Shown piece after piece: positions 4,307 through 14,039 of a stretch of DNA of 50,851 nucleotides; positions within the stretch are counted from its first letter, which is position 1; each line of letters opens with the position of its first letter. Under the pieces are notes generated by a model. It worked only from the letters and a program-made list of their open reading frames with translations. It had not been told where the DNA came from and made no database searches. Made by a program: the position numbers and the translations under genes. Source of the DNA: Pseudomonadota bacterium (GTDB lineage: Bacteria; Myxococcota_A; Polyangia; Polyangiales; JAKSBK01); the NCBI GenBank assembly GCA_022361155.1, contig JAKSBK010000307.1, positions 1 through 50,851 on the forward strand. The letters run 5' to 3'.

Positions 4307-4470
4307 GGGCCCACGGAAGAATAGCTCGTCTGTATCGCCGAGGGCCGGGCGCCGTTGGCAAGGCGCAACGACGAGGGGTATTGGGGATATTTCGAGGAGG
4401 CGCAACCTAGCCAGCGGTGGTCGGAACCGGTGAGATGGATGAGTTATTCTTCTGCGGGCCCTAAGGGCCC
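4307..4470 (+). repeat. Full copy of a dispersed inverted-repeat element (MITE-like)
   Basis: The left arm (4307-4333) and right arm (4435-4461) are imperfect inverted copies: GGGCCCACGGAAGAATAGCT versus, on the minus strand, GGGCCCGCAGAAGAATAACT. Between them lies a body, of which 4314-4415 aligns to 38227-38329 with about 8 mismatches in about 100 bases by eye. The right end repeats GGGCCCTAAGGGCCC. No transposase is present. It could be a non-autonomous mobile element or an extended intergenic palindromic repeat. Confidence 0.7.
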
Positions 4471-4648
4471 ACTCGACAACAACTCGGTGTCGGCGCTGTT
4501 TTCGAGGGCTTTTCTTGATCGACGTGAGCCGCGAGCGCGTCGCCCTGCACGGCCGCGGCCGATCGAGTTATGCTTGGCTGGGCCCAAGGGCGGTCGGAGC
4601 CGGCGAAACGGGAAAGCCATTCTTGAACGGGCCCTAAGGAGAGCAAGC
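4307..4648. other. Intergenic region holding the repeat element and the leader of the exported-protein operon
   Basis: About half of this stretch is the repeat element. The remainder (4471-4648) has no gene that I can support. It ends with GGGCCCTAAGGAG (4629-4641), which supplies the ribosome-binding site for the gene at 4649 and echoes the outer edge of the repeat arms (compare GGGCCCTAAGGAGG at 22-35). Confidence 0.5.
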
Positions 4649-5734
4649 ATGCAACTTCCACCTTCCGCCCGCATTCTGGTGATTGCGAGCGCTTTCGGCA
4701 CACTTGCCTGCCTGGGTCCCCGCGCCTCGGACGACGTCGTCGATAGCCCCGAGTGGCTACCGTTCGATGTGCCTGTTCCCGAGTGCACGTCCAATCCACG
4801 TTTGATGCAACAAATCGACAAGTTCGATGGTATCGACTCGCTCTACATTCCCAGACAGAAGGCCTACGCGGGAGGCCAGGAGGTCATGTTTTGGGATTTC
4901 GGCGTGGCGCCCCGTTTTGCCGTACCGGTGTGGCTTTTTAGGCGCTGCGGATTGGACGGCAAGCCTCTGATGGGCGATGAAGGGCAGCTGCCGCTGCGCG
5001 AGCCGATCGACAATCAAAACCCGGCAGCTCCTGTGTTCATGACGCACCCCAACCTGATCGATGTGGTTCCGGGCGACTCGTCGTACAGCCCGTTCTGGTC
5101 GATGTCGGCTGTGTGCATTAACGAAGCCGACTACGAATTCCGTGGCCGACCTATCCTGGCGAGTTTCCAGGCCATCAGTCATGCGGTGCAGGTTGGCATG
5201 GCTGCCGAGCCGATGGACATGGGGATGTGGGCAAACTGCCCGGTTGTATCGCCGCTTGCCCGGCTCGATGTGGGCTTGGGCGCGCCCCCGGTGCCGCCCC
5301 ACGGGGGATTCTACAAAGGCCACAAGGTCTATTACTACCACCTCGGGCGCATGGATCCGGATCCGTGCAACCCGATGGGGCCGCCTTCGGGTGTGTACAA
5401 GCTCGACACCGCAGGGCTCGTTGCGACTGGGCTCGTGTACATGTTCGAACGTGAGACAGGCGGGCCGTCGTGTCCGCGTGTGTTTCAGTTTCCCCGGCGA
5501 TTGCCGCCGCAGATGGGAGGTTGCAAGGTGCCGGAGTACAGTCCGCTCTGGCGTGAGGTGCGCGTGACCTTGATTGACTCAGCGCAGTGTTTCATGTCAG
5601 AAGCAGAGATGTTCAATAGGGCACCAGGCGGTGAGCTCGTTTACACGCAGCGAGGCAGCGCAGCGATAGTTAGGCACGAAGTCACCGACAACTACGTGAA
5701 TAACGCGATCCAATGGGAAGCGGGACTGGAGTGA
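4649..5734 (+). CDS. Predicted exported lipoprotein, possibly DUF7482-like
   Basis: A 361-residue protein whose N-terminus (MQLPPSARILVIASAFGTLAC) looks like a signal peptide ending at a Cys21. The lipobox GTLAC is not ideal, so plain secretion is also possible. The mature part is not an enzyme I can name. It contains two stretches of the form PGDSSYSPFW and PEYSPLW followed by hydrophobic strands, plus GGFYKGHKVYYY; I recall a similar pattern in the uncharacterised DUF7482 family, but this is unverified. Cysteines are few and there is no heme motif. The ATG at 4649 has AAGGAGAG five bases upstream. Its stop overlaps the next gene's GTG start, so it leads the operon with two cytochrome-like proteins and an outer-membrane barrel. 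Confidence 0.75.
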   Translation: MQLPPSARILVIASAFGTLACLGPRASDDVVDSPEWLPFDVPVPECTSNPRLMQQIDKFDGIDSLYIPRQKAYAGGQEVMFWDFGVAPRFAVPVWLFRRCGLDGKPLMGDEGQLPLREPIDNQNPAAPVFMTHPNLIDVVPGDSSYSPFWSMSAVCINEADYEFRGRPILASFQAISHAVQVGMAAEPMDMGMWANCPVVSPLARLDVGLGAPPVPPHGGFYKGHKVYYYHLGRMDPDPCNPMGPPSGVYKLDTAGLVATGLVYMFERETGGPSCPRVFQFPRRLPPQMGGCKVPEYSPLWREVRVTLIDSAQCFMSEAEMFNRAPGGELVYTQRGSAAIVRHEVTDNYVNNAIQWEAGLE

Positions 5735-6201
5735 GAACGACCGCGTGGTTGGCATGCCTCTGCTGCGTGGTGTCCGGTGGGTGTCTGGCGGAACACCTCG
5801 CCGAGCCCGAAGTGGGAGCTGTCAGCCCATATCGATGCAGTCCAATCGGTGACAGCGATCCCGACCGGGATGTGTCGTTCTCGAATCAGATCCTCCCGCT
5901 CTTTCTGCGGCCGCCGCCAGCGCCGGGGTGCGGCTGTCATCTGCCGACTTCCCCTAACCCGGTAGGGCTCATGTCGACCGGATTGGATCTGTCAACGTTC
6001 AGTACGCTGATGGCGGGCGGGACAGGCGCGGCGATTCCGATCGTGGCTCCCGGAAAGCCCTGCGAGAGCCTGCTCGTGCAGAAGGTCGGTGAATCGCCAC
6101 CGTTCGGAACCAGAATGCCTCGCACGGGCCCCCCCTTTCTCTCGGATAGCGAAATCCAGCTCATCAAGGACTGGATCGCTGAGGGAGCCCTTGAGAACTG
6201 A
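5731..6201 (+). CDS. Exported cytochrome-c-like lipoprotein with atypical CXCH motif
   Basis: A 156-residue protein starting at GTG 5731, which overlaps the previous stop as GTGA. The N-terminus is a hydrophobic signal ending in VVSGGC, a probable but non-ideal lipobox. The mature protein resembles the short cytochrome-like domains common in Planctomycetes and Myxococcota: a Cys-His motif (GCGCHLPTS), an APGKPCESLL stretch, MPRTGPPFLSDSEI and an ending LIKDWIAEGA. The Cys-His site is CGCH, not the canonical CXXCH, so covalent heme c attachment is doubtful. The gene overlaps the next one by 11 bases. I infer a role in the same envelope complex as its neighbours. Confidence 0.75.
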   Translation: MRTTAWLACLCCVVSGGCLAEHLAEPEVGAVSPYRCSPIGDSDPDRDVSFSNQILPLFLRPPPAPGCGCHLPTSPNPVGLMSTGLDLSTFSTLMAGGTGAAIPIVAPGKPCESLLVQKVGESPPFGTRMPRTGPPFLSDSEIQLIKDWIAEGALEN

Positions 6202-6736
6202 TCGACCGGCGCCTCTCCTGACCCGACGCCTTGCAAGTGTCGCGTTGGCCGCGACACTTGCCGCCGGCTGTGGCGGAATGCAGCGCACGGGAGGCGTCGA
6301 CTCGAGGATCGACCTGGAGAAACTGCCATCCGAGGTCCGGACGGCGTACCACGTTTTCGCTTCCCACTGCAGCCGCTGTCACACTATCGCGCGTCCACTG
6401 AACGCTTACGTTCGGCGAGTCGAGCACTGGAACAGGTACGTCCATCGCATGATGCGTCAACCCGGTAGTGGCATCAACCCGCGCGAAGCCAAGGTGATCC
6501 TCACGTTCCTGCACTACTACACCCTGGAGATCAAGGGGCTGAAACCCCTTCAGGATGAGCCGCAGGCGTCTTCGGAGCCGACGGGGGCGGACCTCATCGC
6601 CCCGAACCCGGGGGTCCGGCCGGTGCCTGCCGCCGCGCAGCCGTCCGAGCAAGCCCCTTCCGAGCAGCACGCACCGAACCCGCGGCAACAAGCTCAACCG
6701 CCTCACCAACCCCTCGATCCATCCCAGCAGCCCTAG
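6191..6736 (+). CDS. Exported lipoprotein with one canonical heme c motif
   Basis: A 181-residue protein read from TTG 6191, in frame and 11 bases inside the previous gene, with GAGGGAG just upstream. The next in-frame ATG upstream (6089) lies deep in the previous gene and would bury the signal peptide. The N-terminus gives TRRLASVALAATLAAGC, a likely lipoprotein signal. The mature part carries HCSRCHT, a canonical CXXCH, in a small helical domain of about 90 residues (RRVEHWNRYVHRMMRQPGSG is typical of small c-type domains). The C-terminal third is Pro-, Gln- and Ala-rich and probably disordered. It likely carries a single heme in the periplasm or at the outer membrane, acting with the barrel protein encoded 12 bases downstream. 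Confidence 0.78.
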   Translation: MRTDRPAPLLTRRLASVALAATLAAGCGGMQRTGGVDSRIDLEKLPSEVRTAYHVFASHCSRCHTIARPLNAYVRRVEHWNRYVHRMMRQPGSGINPREAKVILTFLHYYTLEIKGLKPLQDEPQASSEPTGADLIAPNPGVRPVPAAAQPSEQAPSEQHAPNPRQQAQPPHQPLDPSQQP

Positions 6737-6748
6737 AGGAAGGCTAGC

Positions 6749-7939
6749 ATGTCACCAGGCCAACGAGACCGTATCAAGCCGCTTCTGCTGATCGGCGCGG
6801 GCTTGGCCACCGCGTTCGTCGCCGGGAGCCTGCAACCACCCGGAGCAAGCAGCCAGGACCGTAACCTCGCCGGCTCGGCCCAGGGGAGTTACGTGTTTGT
6901 TCCCACCAACTCGAATGCTCGTAAACAGACTTTCGACGGTTTCATCACGGAGGTGACGATCAAATTGGCCGTGGACTTCACGGAGCGTGTGTCAGCGCAG
7001 GTCAAGCTCTGCTACGGGTGTCACGGTGTCGAATTCGACATGGCGTTCATGGATTTTTGGGCGGCCGACGAGATCAACTTTCGTGTGGGCCGTTTCAACC
7101 CTGCCTTTGGTGATTTCCCCCTGCGCCACGACCCAGCGAACCATCGCACGATCAATAAGCCCCTGCCGTACGACATGGGGCGGATGCTGCGCTTGCGTGA
7201 GTACAACATGAGCGTGATGCCCTCGCCGTATGTCGACAACGGAGTCGAGGTCAATGGAACGCACTGGTTTGGTGAGTCGCTGCAGGTGGACTATGCCATG
7301 TACGTTGTCAGCGGCTTCAAAGGGAGCAGGGACGGTTCCGGACTCGACTATATCCAGTCGCGTTCGGGTTCGTTCTACTACGTCGACAACAACTCGAGGC
7401 CAGCCCTTGGTGGGCGCCTCGCGCTGACGTTGGATCTTGGATCCGCCGCCACGGTTACACTGGGCGGCTCGGCCATGCATGGAACCTACGATCCGGACAA
7501 TCGTCTCGGATACACACTTGCCGGAGCGGATTTCTACGCGCGGCTGGGCAAAGTCGATCTTCGAGCGGAGTACCTGCGCAGGCGCACCGAGGTCCGAGTT
7601 GGTACCGATCCGTTCAACCGTTTCGCCTATCTTCCGGTCAAGAAGAACGGGGGGGACTTCTGGTCGAGCTACTTCCTCAAGGATGGGTTTTATGCCCAGG
7701 CCAACATGGAGGTGACTCCCCGACTGGAGCTCGTGGCTCGTTTCGACGGAATCCGGCGCCTTGGCAACGTGCTTGCCACCAGCCCGCTGCGCAAGGACTC
7801 GCTGGTGTTGCGCTACACGCCCGCGGTGAACGTGGTCTTCGACCACACGCTCCGACTGAAGCTGCAGGGAGAGTTCTACGATTTCAGCGATTTCAAGGAC
7901 GAAATCGCTGTCAGTGCAGCACTGGTGTCCGTGTTCTAG
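6749..7939 (+). CDS. Outer-membrane beta-barrel (porin-like) carrying a CXXCH motif
   Basis: A 396-residue protein starting at ATG 6749, preceded by AGAGGAAGG. A signal peptide (LLLIGAGLATAFVAGS) is followed by alternating hydrophobic strands and aromatic girdle residues, and the protein ends in Phe (LVSVF), the usual mark of barrel proteins handled by BamA. RVGRFNPAFG near residue 115 resembles phosphate-selective-porin-like barrels. Unusually, CYGCHG, a canonical heme c attachment site, lies near residue 90 between two predicted strands. It closes the operon of exported cytochrome-like proteins. I infer a heme-bearing or heme-contacting barrel; a simple porin with a fortuitous motif is the alternative. 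Confidence 0.75.
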   Translation: MSPGQRDRIKPLLLIGAGLATAFVAGSLQPPGASSQDRNLAGSAQGSYVFVPTNSNARKQTFDGFITEVTIKLAVDFTERVSAQVKLCYGCHGVEFDMAFMDFWAADEINFRVGRFNPAFGDFPLRHDPANHRTINKPLPYDMGRMLRLREYNMSVMPSPYVDNGVEVNGTHWFGESLQVDYAMYVVSGFKGSRDGSGLDYIQSRSGSFYYVDNNSRPALGGRLALTLDLGSAATVTLGGSAMHGTYDPDNRLGYTLAGADFYARLGKVDLRAEYLRRRTEVRVGTDPFNRFAYLPVKKNGGDFWSSYFLKDGFYAQANMEVTPRLELVARFDGIRRLGNVLATSPLRKDSLVLRYTPAVNVVFDHTLRLKLQGEFYDFSDFKDEIAVSAALVSVF

Positions 7940-9839: not shown

Positions 9840-10046
9840 AGGTACAACGACCAGAGCGCTGAACGGGTTGGTACCAGGCGGCTTGAAATCGGCTTGCCGG
9901 CCGGCTAGGTTGGGCTTCCATCGTGGCAGAGGGAGGCCAGTACCGGTTGCAGCACGTGCCAGGCAACGGAACGCGCAGGAGCTGGGGCAAGCGAGCGCCC
10001 GAGCGGTGCATGTTGGTCAACGGACGATAATCAGGAGGAGCGGCTA

Positions 10047-11879
10047 ATGCGTGAGATAGGGAACACCCCTCTGGTGGTTGAGACCAAGGCCTTGTTGTTT
10101 GCGTTGTTGTTTGTGTTGTTGATCGGCTGCGCCGGTGATGCGGGTCCTGCCGGCGAGCCGGGGGCGCCGGGTGAAGCGGGTCCTGCGGGTCCTGCGGGCG
10201 ATCCGGGGCCGGCACCGAGCGAGGCACAGATAGCAGGTGTGATCGACAACGTCCTCGGCGGCTGTCGCGGCCTCACGCTAAGCGCCCAGGAGTGGGATGA
10301 GGTCTTCGAGATCGGACAATTCATCGCTTCTGGCGAGGAACGCGAGGTGTGTTCCCTCCATCGGACGGGGCCAGAGGATCTGTTCATGAGCGAGTCCGAG
10401 GTGATCATGAACAAGGGCTCGCACCATGGCTTGCTGTTTCTCACCGGCTACACGGAGGTGCCCGCCAAGGACCTGAAGGGGGAGCCGGTCGAGCTGGGCA
10501 AGGTCGTCCCCTGCGAGGATGCGCCGAATTCCCGATTCGACGTGACCTCGGTGCTCTCGGGCAGCCAAGGTACGGGCAACCTCACGGCCGACGGGCAAAT
10601 CCCCGAAGGCGTGGCCTTGAGGATCCCAGCGAACTCCCTCGTGGTCATGAACTACCATCTGCTGAACGCAACGGACGAGGACCTGAGCGCCTGCATGAAG
10701 ATCGGGCTCAAGGGCATTCCCAGGGCCGAAGTTCAGCAGGAGGCTGGGGTGCTGTTCTTCTATAATCCCTTCATTAGCGTTCCGGCACAAGGGATGGCTC
10801 GGGCCCGGATGGCATGTCCCATGACGCAGGACATTCAGCTTGGGAGCGCGGTCTCGCACATGCACGCCCGGGGCGTGGGCTACAGCGCCCGTTGGCTCGA
10901 TGCGAGCCCCTACGACCCCAGCAGCTCGACGATTCAGATGCTCTACGAGACCACGGAGTGGGAGGCGCCGGAGCCGAGGGTGTTCGAAACGCCGCTGGAG
11001 CTGAAGACGGGACAGTGGATAGACTACGAGTGTCAGTACGAAAACCCAGAGCAACGTGACGTTGCGCAGGGGCTCGATACGAGCGATGAGATGTGCATGT
11101 TCATCGGCTTGTACTGGCCCAAAAACGATGCGCTCTCGAATTGCGCCATGGAACGGGACGAGGGCATCGTCAATGCGGGCTACAACATCGGAGACGGGGC
11201 GCTGTCGGGAGCCGGTTTCCTGGAGTGCCTGTGGAACGGTCCGCTCGACTTCGAAACCTGTGGCTCCAAGCGCTGCAGGTCGCCCGAGGACCGCTACGCG
11301 ACCCAAGCCTGTTTCACCCAGAGCTGCGAGGCCGTCGGGCAGTTCAGCCGAGCCTATTTGGATTGCGCCGGCGACAACCTGGACACCTGCCAACGGCAGT
11401 GCACTGCGGCCGCCAGCGAGTACCAGACCTTGTGTGCGATCACGGCAGTGGCGGAGGGCGGCTGCGCCGAGAAGTTCGGCAGCGATGGCTCCGACGGTAC
11501 CTGCGCCACCTCAGCTGAAAGCTTGCACGAGGCTGAAGCACGCTGCCGGCAGGCTACCCGCCAACAGGCCCTCGACCAGGTCTGTCGCGGATTGCCGCAG
11601 GCGGCCGGGGGCTGTGCCGAGGTCTGCGATGTGCCGGATGCGATGGCTTGCAGCGCTTGCCTGGGCAGCGTGGATTTCGTCCAGACCAACACAAGCTGCC
11701 GCAACGTGCGCAGCCTGCGCTGCCTCGGGGAGCAGGTGCAGGCCGTGGCCGAGAGCTGCGTCAAGGAGTGCTTCGCCGAGTGCCTGCCGCAGGCCATCGG
11801 CACCTGCACCATCGATTGCCTCAGCTCGGGGCCTTGCGGGACCGAAACCAGCGGATTGCTTGGAGCCACCTGCAAGTGA
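10047..11879 (+). CDS. Lipoprotein with collagen-like linker, copper type II monooxygenase-like core and Cys-rich tail
   Basis: A 610-residue protein. A lipoprotein signal (ALLFVLLIGC) is followed by a collagen-like Gly-X-Y stretch (about residues 30-56). The core matches the peptidylglycine/dopamine monooxygenase type: HH at 126-127, H204 in NYHLLN, HMH at 271/273 and a Met in SDEMC (M349). Both the order and the spacing of these ligands agree with the two copper sites CuH (His, His, His) and CuM (His, His, Met). From about residue 385 to the end comes an unrecognised tail with roughly thirty cysteines, probably disulphide-bonded. AGGAGGAG lies just before the ATG. The stop overlaps the next gene's GTG. 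It likely acts at the cell surface or in the periplasm as an ascorbate- or other-reductant-dependent hydroxylase; the substrate is unknown. Confidence 0.82.
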   Translation: MREIGNTPLVVETKALLFALLFVLLIGCAGDAGPAGEPGAPGEAGPAGPAGDPGPAPSEAQIAGVIDNVLGGCRGLTLSAQEWDEVFEIGQFIASGEEREVCSLHRTGPEDLFMSESEVIMNKGSHHGLLFLTGYTEVPAKDLKGEPVELGKVVPCEDAPNSRFDVTSVLSGSQGTGNLTADGQIPEGVALRIPANSLVVMNYHLLNATDEDLSACMKIGLKGIPRAEVQQEAGVLFFYNPFISVPAQGMARARMACPMTQDIQLGSAVSHMHARGVGYSARWLDASPYDPSSSTIQMLYETTEWEAPEPRVFETPLELKTGQWIDYECQYENPEQRDVAQGLDTSDEMCMFIGLYWPKNDALSNCAMERDEGIVNAGYNIGDGALSGAGFLECLWNGPLDFETCGSKRCRSPEDRYATQACFTQSCEAVGQFSRAYLDCAGDNLDTCQRQCTAAASEYQTLCAITAVAEGGCAEKFGSDGSDGTCATSAESLHEAEARCRQATRQQALDQVCRGLPQAAGGCAEVCDVPDAMACSACLGSVDFVQTNTSCRNVRSLRCLGEQVQAVAESCVKECFAECLPQAIGTCTIDCLSSGPCGTETSGLLGATCK

Positions 11880-12481
11880 GTCGGCCGGCGCCGGAGGCTG
11901 CGGCGCTGCTTGCCCTGGGACTGGGATTGCTGGTCGTGGCCGGCTGCGACTCGGAACAAGCTCAGGTTCCAGCCGACGCCGGCTCGGAGCCTGGATTGGA
12001 TGCCGGAGGGGGCGCGGGCGGGCGTGGCTCCGACGCTGCAAGCGACGCCCCGCCAGGCGAGCCCGGAAGCGACGCCGGCGCTTGTGGTGCAGGCCAGACA
12101 CGCTGCGGAAAGCGCTGCATCGATCCGATCACTCCGGACATCCAGTCGCTGCACAAGAGCATCTTCAAGACGAGCTGCGGGCTCAGTACCTCCTGCCACG
12201 CCGGCGGCTCGGCGAAAGAGGGGTTGAGGATGGCGACGGTGTCGGACGTATTCGACACCGCCGTTCGGCAGCCCTCTCGCCAGCGGCCGGCCGTCGCAAT
12301 CATCGAGCCCGGTGATCCTGGCAAGAGCTACCTGCTCAACAAACTGAGCGGAATGGACATCGCCGCCCGGGGCAGCACAGGCATCCCTGCCACCGCCATG
12401 CCGCCGCCTCCGAACGGCATGCTCTGCGAGCACAAGATTCGTATGATCGAGCAATGGATCGCGCAAGGCGCGAAACGCTGA
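11876..12481 (+). CDS. Exported lipoprotein with cytochrome-like Cys-His motif (CX5CH)
   Basis: A 201-residue protein from GTG 11876, coupled to the upstream copper protein as GTGA. The signal LGLGLLVVAGC is a good lipobox. A Gly/Ala/Asp-rich linker (about residues 25-75) leads to a compact domain: CGKRCIDP, IFKTSCGLSTSCHAGG, IIEPGDPGKSYLLNKL, TAMPPPPNGMLC and MIEQWIAQGA. This is the myxobacterial and planctomycete cytochrome-like pattern, but the Cys-His site is CGLSTSCH and not CXXCH, so heme c attachment is uncertain; the cysteines may be disulphide-bonded or bind metal. It likely partners the copper protein, perhaps as an electron donor; that role is inferred only from position. Confidence 0.78.
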   Translation: MSRPAPEAAALLALGLGLLVVAGCDSEQAQVPADAGSEPGLDAGGGAGGRGSDAASDAPPGEPGSDAGACGAGQTRCGKRCIDPITPDIQSLHKSIFKTSCGLSTSCHAGGSAKEGLRMATVSDVFDTAVRQPSRQRPAVAIIEPGDPGKSYLLNKLSGMDIAARGSTGIPATAMPPPPNGMLCEHKIRMIEQWIAQGAKR

Positions 12482-13134
12482 CCTCGTGTCTCGACTCCTG
12501 TCCGCGCCTCGGGCGAGCGGTGCTGCTTTGGCTGCTCGCGGGCTGCTCGGGCGGCGATGCCTCCACCGGCGCCGTGCCGCTGCCTGCAGGAGCAGACGCT
12601 GGCCGTGACGCCCTCGTGACGGACGCCGCGGCGCCGGATGCCCCCGGGGCCGATGGCGGAGCCGGACCCTTGCGGCAGCGCCGGATGCTCGTGAGTCATC
12701 GCCTCTGGCGTCCCGCAAGCTCGGCGGAGGATCCTTCCAGCCACAGGCCGAGCTCCATCGCGTGCGATCGCAGGTCCTACGGACGTGAGATCTTGGCGGG
12801 CGAAGAAGCCTTCTTCGTGAAGACCGACAAGTGCAACTACATGGCGGCGCGTCAATCCACGATCGTCGATATCCGCAAGGGCGATCGAATCAAGCTGCGG
12901 CTCTGGCACTTCCGCCTCACTGCACCGCCAGGCGCCCGGGTCCACAGCGCTCTGTGGATCGGGGATCACGTGGTGCTGGACAAGCACTTGCCGATCCCGC
13001 GCAAAAGCGGGTTGATCAGCAAGACCTGGATCGCCCCCCAGGATATCGCCGCGGGTGCGCAGGTCCTCTTTCACATTCACAATCATGGCGACAACGAATA
13101 CGACCTTGTCGAGCTCAGCACCGGCTCGCCGTAA
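12454..13134 (+). CDS. Lipoprotein of unknown function with HIHNH motif
   Basis: A 226-residue protein overlapping the previous gene by 28 bases. I use ATG 12454 because it gives a signal peptide of about 30 residues ending in LLWLLAGC, a strong lipobox, and no better in-frame start follows. The linker is rich in Ala, Asp and Gly. The C-terminal domain (about residues 100-226) looks like an all-beta fold: DKCNYMAARQ, KLRLWHFRLTAPPG, HSALWIGDHVVL and HIHNHGDNEYDLVELS. The three His in HIHNH are a plausible metal site. I cannot name a family. Its place as third gene after the copper monooxygenase-like protein suggests an accessory or metal-handling role. Confidence 0.72.
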   Translation: MDRARRETLTSCLDSCPRLGRAVLLWLLAGCSGGDASTGAVPLPAGADAGRDALVTDAAAPDAPGADGGAGPLRQRRMLVSHRLWRPASSAEDPSSHRPSSIACDRRSYGREILAGEEAFFVKTDKCNYMAARQSTIVDIRKGDRIKLRLWHFRLTAPPGARVHSALWIGDHVVLDKHLPIPRKSGLISKTWIAPQDIAAGAQVLFHIHNHGDNEYDLVELSTGSP

Positions 13135-13211: not shown

Positions 13212-14039
13212 CTACGCCGGAATCGTGCTCGCGCCCAGCAGCATCCAGGCTCGCAGGACGCTCAGCAGGGTGGCGGGATCCGGTGCCTGGTAGCGGAGCG
13301 TTCTTGCAGAAGCACGGACGGTTTTGGGAAGGAGCTCGCAGGCGTCGGCCATCGCGCTGGTGACACAATCGGTTTCCAGCAAGAGCGGCCCGTCGACAAC
13401 GAACGGTCGCAGTTCTCCGGCTCTGCGGCAGACCCGGGTGGCTGCCGCTCGAATCCGTGCCCGGGCGGTCTTCGGGTGCTGGGATTGCGCCGAATAGCGG
13501 GACAGCGCGCGCTTGACGGCTACCGTTTCGATTCCGTCGATCAGCTCGGCAGACTGAATACAGGTGGTTTCGTCGCCGGTGACGAGACCGACGGGCGTTT
13601 GGTGCTGGCCACAGACGAGCGCGTTGAGGCCCGCCTCGTTGAAAGGGCGACCGTTGATGCGGACGCTGGCTGCGACTCGACCGGCATAGGTGTGATCCAG
13701 GATGGCCAGGGCCGTGCCGGCGCCGGCGTGATAGCCGACGAACAAGGCAACGTCGAAGCCCGCGTCGACTCCAGCCACCATCGAGTGCGGTTTGAGCGAG
13801 CCGGACAAGATTTCGACGCGTTCGTCGAGCTCGTCGAGCAGCAGATTGCGCATGTCCCCGTGCGAGTCGTTGACAAGCACGTGGGCTGCGCCTGCGTCGA
13901 AAGCTCCGAGTGCGGCCGCGTTGGCTTCGGCGGTCATCCAGTGCCGTGCGAGCTCGAAGTCAGCGGCGCCACGCCGGCAATGATCGGCGTGCACGACTCC
14001 GGCCACGCCCTCCATGTCGATCGATATGTAGGTTCGCAT
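13212..14039 (-). CDS. dppA: D-aminopeptidase, DppA type (M55 family)
   Basis: A zinc peptidase of 275 residues that removes N-terminal D-amino acids from small peptides, in Bacillus linked to use of cell-wall D-Ala peptides. The N-terminus reads MRTYISIDMEGVAGV, giving the zinc ligands D8 and E10. The other expected ligands are visible in NDSHGDMRN (His), GYHAGAG (His) and RPFNEAGLNA (Glu). No signal peptide is seen, so it is cytoplasmic. It is oriented against the lipoprotein operon and divergent from parC. Unlike in Bacillus, no dipeptide transporter genes accompany it here. Confidence 0.88.
   Translation of the reverse strand: MRTYISIDMEGVAGVVHADHCRRGAADFELARHWMTAEANAAALGAFDAGAAHVLVNDSHGDMRNLLLDELDERVEILSGSLKPHSMVAGVDAGFDVALFVGYHAGAGTALAILDHTYAGRVAASVRINGRPFNEAGLNALVCGQHQTPVGLVTGDETTCIQSAELIDGIETVAVKRALSRYSAQSQHPKTARARIRAAATRVCRRAGELRPFVVDGPLLLETDCVTSAMADACELLPKTVRASARTLRYQAPDPATLLSVLRAWMLLGASTIPA

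Follow-up and report, generated by a model that had tools for sequence, protein, structure and literature searches.

The window (the whole 50,851-nucleotide stretch analyzed here) is one entire contig of a 5.4-Mb assembly that comprises 608 contigs, and by sequence the close relatives of its source genome are Myxococcota. Three consecutive forward-strand genes form the subject of this work: gene 1, which encodes a 610-residue lipoprotein related to peptidylglycine and dopamine beta-monooxygenases (PHM/DBM-like), gene 2, a cytochrome-like lipoprotein, and gene 3, a third lipoprotein. Their features are collected in Table 1. In agreement with the initial annotation, the gene 1 product carries a lipoprotein anchor and a collagen-like Gly-X-Y linker, and its six candidate copper ligands, the last one within SDEMC, are found at the residues that had been claimed. 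A short helix-forming stretch lies between the Gly-X-Y run and the core.

Table 1. Features of the three-gene locus, in window coordinates.
Feature	Position	Strand	Details and basis
PHM/DBM-like lipoprotein gene (gene 1)	10047..11879	+	610 aa, ATG start
Shine-Dalgarno-like AGGAGG	10033..10038	+	8 bases 5' of the ATG of the 610-aa ORF
Signal peptide and lipobox LIGC, lipid Cys28	10047..10130	+	Sequence; Cys28 column is C in 24/24 members with the column filled
Collagen-like Gly-X-Y run, 9 triplets, residues 30-56	10134..10214	+	PF01391 19.6 bits, below cut-off 27.2
Double jelly-roll two-copper core, about residues 81-383	10287..11195	+	Predicted model, Foldseek/VIA-align
CuH ligands H126, H127 (predicted)	10422..10427	+	Profile-to-PDB and family alignment
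CuH ligand H204 (predicted)	10656..10658	+	Profile-to-PDB and family alignment
CuM ligands H271, H273 (HMH; predicted)	10857..10865	+	Profile-to-PDB and family alignment
CuM ligand M349 (DEMC; predicted)	11091..11093	+	Profile-to-PDB and family alignment
Helical cysteine-rich tail, residues 384-610	11196..11876	+	Sequence, loci comparison, models
Putative c-type cytochrome-like (PSCyt1-like) lipoprotein, lipobox VAGC (gene 2)	11876..12481	+	GTG start overlaps gene 1 stop (GTGA)
C-X5-CH haem-like motif CGLSTSCH	12176..12199	+	C-X4/5-CH at the same place in 22/22 other homologues
Third lipoprotein (gene 3), start codon uncertain, overlaps gene 2	12454..13134	+	Conserved ...H..L.AP...IP...FHxxNHGxNxY... 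near the end

Elsewhere in the window, positions 4355-7939, upstream of gene 1, hold a possible second redox cluster. Its members are a PSCyt1-like lipoprotein (5713-6201), a small CxxCH protein (6089-6736) and two proteins with weak matches, one to DUF7482 (459 aa) and one to a porin (396 aa). On the reverse strand, positions 13212-14039 encode a protein beginning MRTYISIDMEGVAGVVHADH, which we take to resemble a DppA-type M55 D-aminopeptidase.

The initial annotation had read gene 1 as copper type II monooxygenase-like and had proposed a profile search and a structural overlay on PHM; both gave results in favor of this reading, as did the conservation of ligands and core cysteine pairs. The Pfam profile Cu2_monoox_C (PF03712) matched the 610-aa protein at 31.4 bits, above its cut-off of 23, and because of this the ligand motif is not a chance occurrence. 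Gene 1 is the sole PF03712 match of its genome. Among the 282 Myxococcota genomes sampled, PF03712 was found in 152, often several times per genome, and the window protein itself found matches in 39 of the 56 genomes counted. Scanning genome contigs with the single protein returned no relative; scanning them with an alignment (A2) returned 27 related loci, all from Myxococcota or uncultured delta-type bins, including Polyangium, Minicystis and Byssovorax. One relative (L039, 5758-8788) carries three PHM-like genes in tandem.

We then worked with a profile (A4) of 26 members, made of the window protein and 25 of these 27 loci: L047 and L049 were omitted, near copies standing in for L049, and L057 was kept though its N terminus is cut. 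PF03712 was matched at E <= 0.1 in all 26 members. PF01082, which describes the N-terminal CuH half, gave no Pfam match in the 610-aa protein and was weakly matched in 2 of the 26. A search of the PDB with the 610-aa sequence alone gave nothing useful; the A4 profile found rat PHM (E about 4e-6) and human DBH (4.5e-5), and its alignments with PHM/DBH chains placed ligand on ligand, that is, SHH on VHH, the H204 region on VHY, HMH on HTH and DEMC on DEMC.

An AlphaFold2 model derived from A4 had a mean pLDDT of 78, with core blocks mostly above 90. When it was compared with known structures by Foldseek and VIA-align, the top match was human DBH (4zel; Z 24.8, rmsd 3.7, 306 residues aligned), followed by PHM (6ala; VIA-align Z 23.3, 271 residues aligned). 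The fold match to PHM/DBH begins at residue 71-81 and covers both halves. All PHM/DBH rows had Foldseek E values of 1e-9 or below (best 2e-14) and Z scores of 17.5 to 24.8, and the best rows outside this family stayed below Z 8. The latter included PNGase F, which belongs to the same Pfam clan as PHM according to PMC8812541.

The ligands are strictly conserved. Indeed, H126 and H127 are kept in all 25 rows that extend to them, L057 being truncated at that point, and H204, H271, H273 and M349 in 26/26. The cysteine pairs C257/C366 and C329/C350 are likewise kept in 26/26 members and C102/C156 in 24/25, the exception (L055) lacking both residues together. According to PMC4846438, the ligands have their counterparts in DBH H262/H263/H333 and H412/H414/M487, and the three pairs correspond by order to DBH C232-C283, C390-C503 and C466-C488. 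Overall, the predicted fold and the ligands support the assignment of residues ~81-383 to a PHM/DBM-type two-copper core, and taken together they would bring the ligands close in space.

With a PHM-like core fold and PHM-like ligands, the protein could be a true peptidylglycine alpha-hydroxylating monooxygenase producing amidated peptides, a role that we regard as highly improbable in view of its substrate-binding positions and domain content. In PHM, R240, N316 and Y318 are, we assume, the residues that hold the carboxylate of the peptide substrate. At the same places, with HTH and DEMC as reference motifs, the 610-aa protein has V269, M351 and I353, and the family has mostly Q, M and I. In addition, the Pfam scan of the 610-aa protein detected no lyase domain. 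Judged by its sequence, this is not a peptidylglycine hydroxylase, and since the carboxylate-holding residues differ, its substrate is probably not a glycine-extended peptide.

The initial annotation further described an unrecognized tail with about thirty cysteines. This number was roughly correct: the 610-aa protein has 35 cysteines in total, 26 of them in residues 375-610 and 27 after C350. The tail is unrecognized in the sense that it matches no known family or fold, as there was no Pfam match, no PDB sequence match at E <= 1, a best Foldseek E value of 6.5 and VIA-align Z scores of at most 2.6 on only 10 chains. It is, however, not unique, since a homologous shorter tail is present throughout the subfamily. 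In all 27 related loci the core is followed by an extension, and C350 by 7, 11, 13 or 15 cysteines. A 64-row tree has a branch (97/95) with all 29 tailed rows on one side, the window protein lying inside this group on a long branch. The tail is the mark of one clade of Myxococcota lipoproteins. A profile of the tail gave 22 matches in 19 of the 183 genomes of the order. A tail without a copper core was looked for in 13 of these matches, and all 13 had the core in frame; the profile starts inside the end of the core, which favors matches that include it.

Once the lipid cysteine is excluded, the number of cysteines in the mature protein is even in 26/26 members (12, 16, 18, 20 or 34). For L059 the parity was corrected by hand, the lipobox VAAC at residue 15 giving 20 cysteines and an early LAAC within the signal peptide giving 21. 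Cysteines have thus been gained two at a time in the family, a pattern indicative of disulphides, and because of the even counts we read the tail as disulphide-knit rather than as a metal trap. The tail was modelled as helical both in the full-length protein and alone; as the tail-alone model is of modest confidence (pLDDT 70), we claim no new fold for it. These counts also bear on the idea that the protein is a non-catalytic copper-binding lipoprotein built on the PHM fold, serving in capture, storage, sensing or delivery with the cysteine-rich tail helping to bind metal. Such a role would suit its envelope location, its many cysteines and histidines and the wide sequence variation among family members, but we consider it improbable, given that every member covering both sites has all the catalytic ligands, the CuM methionine among them, and that even cysteine numbers favor disulphides over thiol metal sites.

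The Gly-X-Y spacer was absent from the 27 related loci, two of which are truncated or have no obvious start, and its PF01391 score lies below the curated collagen threshold (19.6 versus 27.2 bits). A collagen-like adhesin was considered and rejected: the NCBIfam Lcl and Scl models match the Gly-X-Y run alone, far under their cut-offs. Lipoprotein starts with Gly-X-Y recur on other proteins of the order, where several matches are limited to the signal peptide and the Gly-X-Y run (for example G018:C410, G046:C127 and G033:C74). Because these matches cover nothing more, the spacer looks like a shared cassette rather than a family mark. The architecture, which had been called unusual, is so in its collagen-like linker and in the length of its 26-cysteine tail; its core, in contrast, is abundant in Myxococcota, and a tail as such characterizes a whole clade. 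Tail and linker are less mysterious than first thought, and the interest of the locus lies more in its cytochrome and third genes.

Gene 2 matched PSCyt1 (PF07635) at 12.3 bits, under the cut-off of 22, and the C-terminal 175 aa of its product had no Pfam match at E <= 0.1. Its C-X5-CH motif differs from the usual haem motif; on the strength of this CXnCH motif we regard the product as a putative c-type cytochrome. Homologues of gene 2 were found in 95 of 144 genomes. As a regular neighbor of PHM-like genes this cytochrome gene was rejected, since only 1 of the 19 other loci, read over about 1.5 kb on each side, had such a neighbor. Cytochrome-like domains also occur within PHM-like proteins: six of these (L026, L027, L028, L131, L143 and L144) have weak N-terminal cytochrome c-like matches, which score below the Pfam cut-offs, and the fusion-type proteins encoded at L123, L124 and L133, in which C-X4-CH occurs, align in part with gene 2. 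Around the 27 tailed loci, no conserved neighbors were found beyond near-identical Polyangium copies and single cases in other stretches (L077, L079). With no conserved partner among these loci, the operon is particular to this genome's copy.

Gene 3 had no Pfam or NCBIfam match above cut-off. Its homologues amounted to 29 matches in 28 of 144 genomes; those in G181, G337, G349, G142, G405 and G055 were excluded as weak (E 3e-5 to 8e-4), and we read the surroundings of 22 matches besides the window's own. A PHM-like gene adjoins the homologue in 21 of these 22 loci, although 14 of the gene 3 loci come from one genus (g5), out of eight genera in total, and are thus not independent. The one exception (L135) is on a contig that starts 424 bases before the gene, with no PHM-like gene after it. 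Many of the neighboring PHM-like assignments rest on the A4 profile or on BLAST against other such genes, Pfam having missed 6 of the 9 that were scanned. All ligand histidines are present in these neighbors where the A4 profile covers them, and the neighbors are spread over several branches of the PHM-like tree. In one genus (L123, L124, L125, L133, L137 and L140), a recurring cluster has two tandem cytochrome/PHM-like fusions followed by a gene 3 homologue and then by a PHM-like gene with GEMC or QEMC.

In animals, enzymes related to the gene 1 product make noradrenaline and amidated peptide hormones. Because gene 1 has the cytochrome-like gene and the small gene 3 as neighbors, its product may draw electrons from the cytochrome rather than from ascorbate. 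We thus lean, with some reserve, towards an envelope PHM/DBM-type copper hydroxylase fed by a co-translated c-type cytochrome and assisted by an accessory third lipoprotein. The gene 1 product would be exported and lipidated at Cys28, and the short Gly-X-Y spacer would hold it off the membrane. H126, H127 and H204 would bind one copper, CuH, the electron-transfer site, and H271, H273 and M349 another, CuM, the oxygen site. CuM would activate O2, one oxygen atom of which would be inserted into a C-H bond of what we infer to be a small extracellular or periplasmic substrate. The cytochrome lipoprotein would supply two electrons per turnover, one at a time, to CuH, in place of ascorbate alone, and the third lipoprotein would be a dedicated accessory in copper loading, docking or substrate handling. 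The helical tail, knit by disulphides, may serve as a rigid stabilizing or oligomerizing domain, placed like the dimerization domain of DBH. In this scheme the fold, the conservation of the ligands, the cysteine parity, the overlap of the genes and the recurrent neighborhood are computational findings, and copper occupancy, catalysis, the electron donor, the parts played by the tail and the third protein and the class of substrate are inferences.

Ascorbate remains the chief rival electron donor. A PHM-type hydroxylase driven by a small reductant such as ascorbate, whose turnover involves neither the cytochrome nor the third lipoprotein, would be in line with the animal relatives, which use ascorbate according to PMC4846438, as well as with the lack of a conserved cytochrome neighbor in most tailed relatives and the rarity with which stand-alone cytochrome homologues adjoin PHM-like genes (1/19). 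On the other hand, the GTGA overlap of genes 1 and 2, the cytochrome domains inside related PHM-like proteins and the adjacency of the third gene to PHM-like genes in 21/22 loci speak against it, and we find this alternative rather unlikely.

Extending the cytochrome-fed hydroxylase beyond this locus, we tentatively hypothesize that envelope copper hydroxylases of the PHM type form a large class in Myxococcota, receiving their electrons from dedicated c-type cytochromes, which are either fused to them or encoded in their operon, and working with a conserved "NHG" lipoprotein as partner. If this were true, it would represent a respiratory-chain-coupled version, directed at external substrates, of a chemistry so far described as ascorbate-driven and eukaryotic. 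Should the cytochrome be the donor, the locus would offer a bacterial system, perhaps easier to express, for studying how electrons reach CuM, and many undescribed C-H hydroxylases would become open to testing. The 2016 DBH structure paper places this copper hydroxylase class in eukaryotes (PMC4846438), and according to a paper of 2022 PHM is widespread among eukaryotes (PMC8812541); here, the core was found in 152 of 282 Myxococcota genomes, together with several related proteins that have a cytochrome c-like domain and with a recurrent partner gene. The open-access literature searched, subscription papers being outside its scope, described no bacterial PHM/DBM lipoprotein.

Compared with known systems, the 610-aa protein shares with rat PHM (PDB 1phm, 1sdw and 6ala) the double jelly-roll two-copper core, the HH/H/HxH/M ligands and the core cysteine pairs. 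Unlike PHM, it lacks the carboxylate-binding residues and has a lipoprotein anchor, a Gly-X-Y spacer, a tail with predicted disulphides and an adjoining cytochrome gene. Human DBH (4zel) is its closest structural match, with corresponding cysteine pairs, and DBH has a further disulphide-bearing helical part after the core, where disulphides are predicted for the tail of the 610-aa protein. However, the tail (model pLDDT 70) matches no PDB chain in sequence or fold, DBH included, and in contrast to DBH, TBM and MOXD1 the Pfam scan of the 610-aa protein showed no DOMON domain, only about 80 residues preceding the core. The Myxococcota proteins with putative cytochrome fusions (L026, L027, L028, L131, L143 and L144) have a similar core and an N-terminal cytochrome-like domain with CXnCH, and some of them adjoin gene 3 homologues, as is the case here; they differ in having no cysteine-rich tail, and the putative cytochrome next to gene 1 is a separate lipoprotein. 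Finally, the tailed lipoproteins of Polyangium, Minicystis, Byssovorax and Kofleriaceae MAGs (L040-L066) differ from the window protein in the absence of a collagen-like spacer and in having 7 to 15 cysteines after C350 instead of 27, but they belong to the same clade and share a homologous tail.
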